A DNA stretch of 64,000 nt. It comes from Actinomycetes bacterium. Lineage in GTDB: Bacteria > Actinomycetota > Acidimicrobiia > Acidimicrobiales > Bog-793. The DNA is taken from NCBI GenBank assembly GCA_021798985.1, contig JAJZBI010000023.1:1-64000 (forward strand), given 5' to 3'. The notes below the pieces were generated by a model. It made no database searches. It saw only the letters and a list, made by a program, of their open reading frames with translations, and had not been told where the DNA came from. Below, in pieces: positions 38,116 to 40,109 of the stretch. The first letter of the stretch is position 1. Each line of letters starts with the position of its first letter. Made by a program: the position numbers and the translations under genes.

Positions 38116-38493
38116 TCAGGCGCTGGCCGGACGCCGCGTGGTGCGCAGCTTGGACGCCGTGACCAGCGCCGCTGCCGCAAGGACCCCGCCGATCAGGCCG
38201 GCGCCGTAGGCGAGGCGCCGACCGGCGAGGGCCGAGCGGATCACCGAGCGCCGCGCCGCACCCTCGACCGCCTCGAGGAGATCGGCAAGCGCGCCGGGCG
38301 ACAGCTCGGCACGCTCGCGACCGAGCTGGGCGAGCATCCGCAGCAGGCGGCGGTAGCGGGCGAGCTCGGCCTGGCAGGCAAGGCAGTGCTCGATGTGGCG
38401 CGACAGGCCCAACGGCGGCTCGGCGCGACCGTCGAGGACCCTCGGCAGCGCCTCGGCGACGGCCGCGCAGGCGGGCTCAGCGAGCGACGGCAC
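38116..38493 (-). CDS. Putative zinc-binding anti-sigma factor
   Basis: This 125-residue protein probably sequesters the ECF sigma factor encoded just upstream. It has an anti-sigma zinc-finger motif, His-x3-Cys-x2-Cys in HIEHCLACQAEL near residue 32, preceded by an N-terminal Cys. A single membrane-spanning segment (LAYGAGLIGGVLAAAALVT) and a short basic tail end it. The start is GTG at 38493 behind GAGG, overlapping the sigma gene by 17 nt, so the two are co-translated. The family call rests on motif and context only. Confidence 0.75.
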   Translation of the reverse strand: MPSLAEPACAAVAEALPRVLDGRAEPPLGLSRHIEHCLACQAELARYRRLLRMLAQLGRERAELSPGALADLLEAVEGAARRSVIRSALAGRRLAYGAGLIGGVLAAAALVTASKLRTTRRPASA

Positions 38494-39166
38494 CTTGGTG
38501 CACCTCGCCGGGCTCCTGCGGCGGGCCCAGGAAGGGCCGGACCACCCCCGACGCGGCGCCTGGCACCAGCGCCTCTGCCGTCTTTTGCTCGGGGAAGAGC
38601 TGCTCGCGCAGCCGCCGGCGCGCCCGGTGCAGGCGAACCTTGGAGGCCGCCCGGCTGATCTTGAGCTCGGCGCCGATCGCCTCATGGCGAAGCTCATAGA
38701 CGTCGTGGAGCACGACGACGGCACGGAGCGGATCGGGCAGCCGGCCGACCGCCGCGGCGAGCCGATCCCGCTCGGCAGCGCGCGCCGCGACCGCCTCGGG
38801 GTCGCCGTCGTGCGCGTCGTCGGCCAGCTCGCCTGCCGCCTCGAGCGGGAGCGCCACGCGGCGCCGGCGCAGCTGGGTGGCACAGCAATTGGCGGCGATC
38901 CGGTAGAGCCAGGTCGTGACGGCTGCCTCACTGCGGAAGCGGCCGATCGAGCGATAGGCGCGCAGGTAGGTCTCCTGCACCGCGTCCCGGGCGTCGTGCT
39001 CGTTGCCGAGCAGGCGCAGTGCCAGGGCGTGCACGGCGGGGGCGGTCTCGCGCACCAGGCGCTCGAAGGCCTCCCGCTCGCCGCGGCGGGCAGCGCGCGC
39101 CAGCTGCTCGAGCGACTCGCCCTCCGCCGCGAGATCGCGGCGCTCGCCTCGGCCGAGCGAGCTCAT
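38477..39166 (-). CDS. ECF-family RNA polymerase sigma factor
   Basis: This 229-residue protein would redirect RNA polymerase to a specific regulon. Region 2 is clear: LLGNEHDARDAVQETYLRAY then RFRSEAAVTTWLYRIAANCC. Region 4 (GRLPDPLRAVVVLHDVYELR, IGAELKISRAASKVRLHRAR) follows after an acidic linker. About 35 residues extend past region 4. I chose the ATG at 39166; a TTG two codons earlier exists. It is only 10 nt from the rpmG stop, so it is probably co-transcribed with it. The regulon is unknown. Confidence 0.88.
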   Translation of the reverse strand: MSSLGRGERRDLAAEGESLEQLARAARRGEREAFERLVRETAPAVHALALRLLGNEHDARDAVQETYLRAYRSIGRFRSEAAVTTWLYRIAANCCATQLRRRRVALPLEAAGELADDAHDGDPEAVAARAAERDRLAAAVGRLPDPLRAVVVLHDVYELRHEAIGAELKISRAASKVRLHRARRRLREQLFPEQKTAEALVPGAASGVVRPFLGPPQEPGEVHQGAVAR

Positions 39167-39623: not shown

Positions 39624-40109
39624 GTGGACGTGCGCCTCGGCAAGCCCGATGACGCCGAGGCGCTGCGCCAGATCTACAACGGCGAGGTCGTCTCCTCCCT
39701 CGTCACGTTCGACCTCGTCCCCCGCACCCCGGAGGACCAGCACGCCTGGATGGCGGCCCACGGTGGCGCCTACCCGGTCGTCGTCGGCGAGATCGAAGGA
39801 AGGGTCATCGGTTTCGCGTCCCTGTCTCCCTATCGCCCGCGGCCGGCCTATGCGACGACCGTCGAGGACTCGGTCTACGTCGCCGCCGACGTGCGGGGCC
39901 AAGGGGTCGGCAAGGCGCTGCTCAGTGAGGTAGTGCGCCTCGCCGGGGCCCACGGCTTCCACTCGGTGATCGGGCGGATCGTCGGCGACCACACGGCCTC
40001 GATCGCACTCCACCGCTCCTGTGGGTTCGAGCTCGTAGGCATCGAGCGGGAGGTCGGCCGCAAGTTCGGTCGGTGGCTCGACGTCGCGGTGATGCAGCTG
40101 CTCGTCTGA
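39624..40109 (+). CDS. GNAT N-acetyltransferase, phosphinothricin-acetyltransferase-like
   Basis: This 161-residue enzyme would transfer acetyl from acetyl-CoA to an amino group. The N-terminus MDVRLGKPDDAEALRQIYN and the acetyl-CoA loop VAADVRGQGVGKALL are typical. The end (HRSCGFELVGIEREVGRKFG) resembles the PAT/bar branch, whose natural substrates are often methionine sulfoximine or unknown amines. The true substrate is not predictable. Start GTG at 39624 appears leaderless. It converges on the mannosyltransferase gene with a 13-bp gap. Confidence 0.85.
   Translation: MDVRLGKPDDAEALRQIYNGEVVSSLVTFDLVPRTPEDQHAWMAAHGGAYPVVVGEIEGRVIGFASLSPYRPRPAYATTVEDSVYVAADVRGQGVGKALLSEVVRLAGAHGFHSVIGRIVGDHTASIALHRSCGFELVGIEREVGRKFGRWLDVAVMQLLV

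Follow-up and report, generated by a model that had tools for sequence, protein, structure and literature searches.

A sigma/anti-sigma pair in the actinobacterial rpmG-secE-nusG block with predicted targets in fatty-acid and membrane-lipid synthesis

Why should an alternative sigma factor be encoded between tRNA genes, rpmG, secE and nusG? The question is raised by a stretch of 64,000 nucleotides from an acidimicrobial actinomycete (contig JAJZBI010000023.1, positions 1 to 64,000; hereafter the window), in which the first-pass annotation had placed a sigma gene and an anti-sigma gene at 38116-39166, inside the rpmG-secE block. These coordinates proved exact, and both Pfam matches and gene order agree with the assignment. 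The finer description holds as well: the sigma ATG follows the rpmG stop after 10 nt, the anti-sigma gene shares 17 nt with the sigma gene, and its product has an HxxxCxxC motif and one membrane helix. The features of the block are as follows.

39544-39471, minus strand: tRNA-Thr(ggt), the first gene of the block in the window genome
39461-39385, minus strand: tRNA-Met(cat)
39341-39177, minus strand: rpmG (50S ribosomal protein L33), ending 10 nt before the sigma gene
39166-38477, minus strand: ECF (RpoE-like) sigma factor, 229 aa, ATG start
38493-38116, minus strand: anti-sigma, 125 aa, GTG start, overlapping the sigma stop
38374..38469, minus strand: span of the codons for the putative zinc ligands Cys9, His33, Cys37 and Cys40 of the anti-sigma (invariant alignment columns)
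38155..38205, minus strand: predicted membrane helix of the anti-sigma, residues 97-113 (Kyte-Doolittle window)
38021-37948, minus strand: tRNA-Trp(cca)
37920-37603, minus strand: secE
37496-36783, minus strand: nusG, followed by rplK, rplA and rplJ

A scan of the window block for sigma70 promoters returned no site. Divergent from the block, 79 nt from its tRNA-Thr end, lies a gene (39624-40109, plus strand) that by eye encodes a GNAT-type acetyltransferase.

The window sigma has the build of an ECF (group IV) factor, with Pfam regions 2 and 4 (r4_2/r4) only (Sigma70_r2, 5e-18; Sigma70_r4_2, 2.6e-11), and scores above the cut-off of TIGR02937 (sigma70-ECF, 7.2e-26). The best matches of its profile among PDB sequences were AlgU, M. 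tuberculosis SigE, SigW and RpoE, and those profile relatives that bear names come mostly from Acidimicrobiia/Acidimicrobiales MAGs. The anti-sigma has an N-terminal Cys9, a segment HIEHCLAC that fits HxxxCxxC, and a single C-terminal transmembrane helix followed by a basic tail of 12 aa. HxxxCxxC beside an ECF gene is a trait of zinc-type class I anti-sigma domains (ASDI), which the window shares with 56 of 66 block loci. Searches with the window protein gave no significant Pfam family and a weak match to the NCBIfam 'antisigma' model (0.0021), and the anti-sigma profile matched RsiW best (E 1.3e-3), followed by ChrR. Its AF2 model is all-helical at moderate confidence (pLDDT 79.4, pTM 0.46); a Foldseek search with this model placed AlgU/MucA in the top row at a level below significance (E 2.6, VIA Z 2.2).

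To see how far the arrangement extends, we tabulated sigma, nusG and rpmG coordinates in 119 genomes of the class, belonging to 32 families. By coordinates the sigma adjoins nusG or rpmG in 76 genomes, and with the divergent copy of G014, taken from the loci that were read, it lies in the block in 77 genomes and 24 of the 32 families. In 22 further genomes (f2, f5, f6, f9, f12 and single members of f16 and f21) rpmG and nusG stand together without the sigma, and the rpmG-tRNA-Trp-secE order was retained after this repeated, clean loss of the pair; the remaining 20 genomes were unplaced, mostly through contig ends or absent matches, and the 77/22/20 split was tallied by hand from the coordinate matching. 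Across 246 genomes sampled from the phylum, many top-scoring sigma matches from outside the class likewise lie close to nusG. All 20 other-class loci that we read (families f33, f38, f39, f42, f45, f65, f68 and f81) hold the sigma together with an HxxxCxxC anti-sigma that has a hydrophobic stretch, although these loci were picked for sigma-nusG closeness and so do not give a rate. Absence of the pair from relatives is thereby refuted. Where the block is split or broken (G013, G042, G006 and G012; L124, L126, L114 and L123), the sigma stays near rpmG and nusG lies elsewhere. The first-pass annotation had stated that hadABC fill this gap in mycobacteria, which is nearly apt, except that many relatives have both in the gap, a double-hotdog hydroxyacyl dehydratase as well as the sigma pair. 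A MaoC/FAS1_DH dehydratase directly precedes the sigma in several families (two were tested with Pfam).

The pair also persists in Candidatus Actinomarina (family f14), whose genomes are approximately 1 Mb in size; by coordinates the sigma lies in the block in 20 of them, the others being unplaced, and three Actinomarina/OCS155 loci (L215, L220 and L225) show the same block order. In nearly all Actinomarina genomes with the block sigma, it is the sole candidate returned by the ECF query. For the Actinomarinales genomes consulted in a published table, two sigma factors are listed (PMC7771536), so the block sigma should be the only alternative sigma of Actinomarina. Loci L105-L113 of this group are tightly packed in the order tRNA-Tyr, tRNA-Thr, tRNA-Met, rpmG, sigma, anti-sigma, tRNA-Trp, secE, nusG.

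Phylogenetic analysis separated the block sigmas of both samples, together with the relocated sigmas of G127 and G247, from 27 paralogous and other-phylum ECF factors with a support of 100 (bootstrap) and 95 (SH-aLRT). This tree comprised 85 rows, after 36 of 121 had been dropped as near-duplicates, other-phylum sequences (some of them) or long branches, the last including G014 and three paralogues of the window genome; FastTree grouped the divergent G014 sigma with a long paralogue. Both relocated sigmas have zinc-motif anti-sigmas of the same build as neighbours. In three sigma-lacking f2 genomes the highest-scoring sigmas fall with the paralogues, which suggests that the block sigma was lost from f2, not relocated. 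The pair is best read as an orthologous module that was probably ancestral in Actinobacteria.

Inspection of the gap between rpmG and the sigma gene revealed GTAAC in almost every family, as part of a conserved ECF-type motif, GTAAC(C)-N17-GTC, which we take to resemble RpoE-type promoters. Upstream of the sigma, GTAAC-N17..19-GTC is present in 47 of 66 class loci (48 of 66 with G100, scored apart), with a spacer of 18 in 40 of the 47, and in 18 of the 20 loci from other classes; the background was 0.8% in shuffles and one site in 252 kb on the opposite strand of all loci. Most loci thus carry the AAC-type -35 element of autoregulated ECF factors, and the window's own copy is without it: the motif is absent at the window sigma and at the most similar named loci (L163, L173 and L187), as well as at the sigma in Actinomarina, f3, f26, f27 and f30. 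In Actinomarina the ECF motif was sought before tRNA-Tyr, rpmG, sigma and fabD, and none was found. In families bearing the dehydratase, the tail end of the dehydratase gene often runs into GTAAC, and the annotated start of the sigma takes in the -10 element; since this -10 lies within the first sigma codons (L095, L115, L145, L150 and similar loci), the true start of the sigma is probably downstream.

Candidate targets were sought by pattern searches and by reading selected stretches downstream of the sites. The strict motif gave 37 matches in 18 block genomes against 10 for a reversed-pattern control, one match in the window genome against two, 73 in 30 further block genomes, barely more than the control (about 63), and 23 in 22 sigma-lacking genomes against about 50; a looser motif returned mostly background in the 30 further block genomes. 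The 111 strict matches in 49 block genomes lie before the genome's own sigma (27), fabD (21), other lipid or biotin genes (20) and a small membrane protein (3), and approximately 40 are other, unassigned or unread sites, including sites in coding frames. The 20 lipid and biotin genes encode acyl-CoA/acyl-AMP ligases (7), DegV (FakB-like) proteins (4), biotin carboxylase-type proteins (3), desaturases (3), BioY (2) and PlsC (1). Among the sigma-lacking genomes, none of the 23 strict sites precedes a recognisable lipid gene. The tally by gene and the sums of the reversed controls were made by hand via coordinates; targets were named by Pfam on representatives, except for the carboxylase-type protein of G004 and the desaturase of L363, which were named by eye. 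The small membrane protein behind the motif, of approximately 107 aa, occurs in f28, f13 and f20 (L302, L443 and L449), the f13 copy being without a Pfam match. In the window genome the only strict match is the one before fabD, on contig C51, 67 nt from the end of the site to the start used.

We then compared fabD between genomes with and without the block sigma, using the 300 nt upstream of the gene, which was found in 111 of the 119 class genomes. Among measured block genomes outside Actinomarina the motif precedes fabD in 23 of 42, and in sigma-lacking genomes in 0 of 19. Adding nine block genomes by coordinates raises the former to 32 of 51, but these nine were found through their strict matches, and 23 of 42 is the unbiased figure. 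The contrast is significant (Fisher p 1.3e-5 for the measured and 8e-7 for the larger set), although members of a family are not independent; counted by family, and with 21 sigma-lacking genomes, it is weaker (14 of 22 block families against 0 of 4, p 0.03). Shuffled fabD upstream sequences gave the motif in 0.9%. The measured set left out G076, where fabD is cut, and most Actinomarina; it counts G012, whose fabD start is uncovered, and G092 is represented by 163 nt of upstream sequence. The sigma-lacking set excludes G039 (block unseen) and G014 (divergent sigma, no anti-sigma), both of which are negative (0 of 21 when included), and no conserved regulator upstream of fabD was evident by eye in the few sigma-lacking loci inspected. 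The motif is missing before fabD in block families f4, f7, f11, f16, f26 and f28 and in all eight Actinomarina genomes examined, among them G053, which by coordinates has the sigma (the tabulated f14 rows alone give 0 of 7); in seven aligned Actinomarina genomes, conserved coding-like sequence reaches up to fabD. It is present in six of eight genomes whose block was unseen or at a contig break (G021, G086, G094, G020, G036, G103, G035 and G018). In other classes a strict fabD motif occurs in 6 of the 15 block genomes with enough upstream sequence and a looser form in another two; among genomes with an unlinked or relocated sigma the count is 0 of 6. The motif therefore stands before lipid genes in sigma-bearing and not in sigma-lacking genomes, which makes genes of fatty-acid and membrane-lipid synthesis, and fabD most of all, the predicted targets of GTAAC-N17-GTC.

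A shared promoter type does not by itself name its reader. One or more other ECF paralogues might read the sites before fabD and the lipid genes, with the block sigma merely sharing the promoter type: the 3.76-Mb window genome has 20 Sigma70_r2 matches, similar promoters precede unrelated ECF genes, and SigD of C. glutamicum likewise has GTAAC as its -35. We consider this unlikely, because the motif precedes the block sigma itself (48 of 66 and 18 of 20 loci) and because families lacking the sigma keep other ECF genes, yet have the fabD motif in 0 of 19 genomes. We infer that the block sigma, rather than a paralogue, reads the motif and would activate the genes that bear it. Sites resembling GTAAC...GTC also lie near unlinked ECF genes in Endomicrobium-type genomes (L212, L214 and L227) and in Desulfotruncus (L230), which suggests that this type of promoter predates the block sigma or extends beyond it.

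The first-pass annotation had suggested that the pair could link membrane or redox stress to Sec and ribosome output; on this view a stress regulator would tune the block itself, with its tRNAs, ribosomal protein, SecE and NusG. The pair is co-located with the block in most of the class, read-through past it into tRNA-Trp-secE is plausible, and the C-H-C-C zinc motif of 56 of 64 anti-sigmas resembles that of redox-sensing RsrA-type proteins. RsrA-type redox proteins are ZAS anti-sigmas with a Cys plus HxxxCxxC. Among the 66 class block loci, 56 encode an HxxxCxxC anti-sigma, eight a homologue without the full motif (these eight were added by hand) and two (G014 and G040) no anti-sigma; all 56 HxxxCxxC proteins have the N-terminal Cys, in 54 of them 18-40 residues upstream (G054 and G090 being the exceptions), and thus the ligands of the RsrA type, with redox release putative. 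In 8 of 64 class anti-sigmas, however, the predicted zinc site is gone and the N-terminal Cys is lost too: in f28/f29 (L155-L159) the N-terminal Cys is replaced by Tyr, the His by Phe and the first Cys by Asp, with the remaining domain retained; in G068 the last Cys is Ser as well; and in f13 the zinc segment is absent or unrecognisable. That the ligands disappear together speaks for a single C-H-C-C metal site, and their loss in 8 of 64 speaks against this site as a universal sensor. HxxxCxxC has been described as often structural (PMC7406223), which the loss fits. Redox sensing is thus not a signal common to all. The block as a target of the sigma was rejected: motif searches found no site before tRNA genes, rpmG, secE or nusG in 66 class loci, so neither a sigma-dependent promoter before tRNA-Thr or secE nor control of Sec and ribosome output was borne out. 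In nine aligned Actinomarina genomes, moreover, the block begins, at tRNA-Tyr, with a conserved sigma70-type TATAAT-like -10 box. With lipid genes as the targets found, we regard a regulator that tunes the block as improbable. Least credible of all is the idea that the pair is kept only through its position inside an essential operon, its conservation saying little on function, for which the tight spacing and overlap in the window speak, but against which stand the 22 genomes that lost the pair cleanly while keeping rpmG-tRNA-Trp-secE, its retention in 20 Actinomarina genomes of about 1 Mb, nearly always as the only ECF-type candidate, its conserved promoter, and two relocations outside the block that kept the anti-sigma.

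We consider it probable that the pair represents, in the window, an ancient actinobacterial ECF module, predicted from comparative sequence evidence to control fatty-acid and membrane-lipid synthesis. The sigma would direct RNA polymerase to GTAAC(C)-N17-GTC sites at fabD and further lipid genes, and in most relatives also to such a site ahead of its own gene. The range of predicted targets (fabD, carboxylase, biotin uptake, ligases, desaturases and acyltransferase), taken with the neighbouring dehydratase, makes regulation of membrane fatty-acid supply its most likely role, and the link to membrane physiology suggested for the window gains support from these targets. All 64 anti-sigmas have a hydrophobic 17-mer, and the tail beyond it is at most 20 aa in 60 of 64 (median 11, mostly basic), which leaves no space for an outside sensor domain. 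The anti-sigma would thus be a small cytosolic zinc-type domain anchored by one C-terminal membrane helix, with next to nothing outside, a build that lacks the extracytoplasmic domain of the protease-controlled RseA/RsiW type (RIP). As no outside domain is present, its signal most likely comes from the membrane or from a partner in the cytosol. It probably sequesters the sigma at the membrane and frees it on membrane or lipid demand.

How the pair itself is expressed bears on its place in the block. Co-transcription with rpmG, as the first-pass annotation suggested, is plausible through read-through. Because the window copy has no promoter motif of its own, the pair is probably supplied there only by read-through from the rpmG block, and in Actinomarina and the window lineage sigma expression probably depends on the ribosome/Sec block. 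Such supply would tie the sigma level to growth and would reverse the link first proposed: the block would set the level of the sigma, and the sigma the supply of lipid. More tentatively, and as a possibility to which we give clearly less weight, this may form a phylum-ancestral circuit by which the supply of membrane lipid is matched to protein synthesis and export. Read-through across tRNA-rpmG-secE-nusG would keep sigma and tail-anchored anti-sigma at levels proportional to growth; the anti-sigma would read the membrane from within, by lipid packing or by its own insertion, and release the sigma, which would raise transcription of fabD, carboxylase, acyl-ligase and desaturase genes. In Actinomarina, the sigma would then be the last alternative sigma left in a genome that is among the smallest of free-living actinobacteria.

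The components are of known kinds: an ECF sigma, a zinc-type membrane anti-sigma and an ECF factor driving fatty-acid synthesis, as with SigX. SigX is proteobacterial and its locus is differently placed, and SigD of C. glutamicum also sits at a different locus. RsiW, RseA and MucA have periplasmic parts that are cut by proteases, and RsrA is soluble. Overexpression of the ECF factor SigX in P. aeruginosa induces fatty-acid synthesis enzymes and alters membrane fluidity (PMC3875570). Both are ECF factors with a link to fatty-acid synthesis, predicted in the present case, and no orthology is implied; unlike SigX, the present pair is ancestral to much of its phylum and lies in the rpmG-secE locus. 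Closer in taxonomy, C. glutamicum SigD is an actinobacterial ECF factor with a -35 of GTAAC and a lipid (mycolate/envelope) regulon (PMC6338062). The -35 is shared, whereas its -10 is GAT against GTC here, so that the promoter is not of the SigD type. B. subtilis SigW/RsiW, E. coli RpoE and P. aeruginosa AlgU are nearest in the profile comparisons of sigma and anti-sigma, but RsiW, RseA and MucA differ from the anti-sigmas described here in what follows the helix, a tail of at most 20 aa in 60 of 64. With RsrA/SigR of Streptomyces the anti-sigma shares the ZAS build of Cys plus HxxxCxxC; it differs in its TM helix, in a sigma nearer to RpoE/SigW than to SigH/SigR structures, and in the loss of the zinc ligands in two lineages.

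A literature search, mostly without subscription journals and supplementary ECF tables, found no description of the pair, its promoter or its regulon; as far as the literature was searched, the phylum-deep place in rpmG-secE-nusG, the promoter code and the predicted regulon are new. For early fatty-acid synthesis in Actinobacteria, control by the activators MabR/FasR is known in a few genera. They act on the fabD operon in mycobacteria and Streptomyces, and MabR responds to long-chain acyl-CoA (PMC5541348). The likeness lies in dedicated transcriptional control of a fabD-led fatty-acid operon, and the difference in that MabR/FasR are DNA-binding activators whereas the present system is a sigma/anti-sigma pair. 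If our reading is correct, a large and mostly uncultured part of the phylum would instead use an ECF sigma inside a ribosome-Sec unit. This would provide a testable model of how membrane supply is matched to growth and protein export, together with a promoter code by which regulons of uncultured Acidimicrobiia could be annotated, and would suggest what the one alternative sigma of Candidatus Actinomarina may do.

The FabD of the window genome (L313/P0006) has a C-terminal extension of approximately 150 aa, which has no Pfam match and which by eye (SPFAGALQG...) resembles a biotinyl/lipoyl-type segment.
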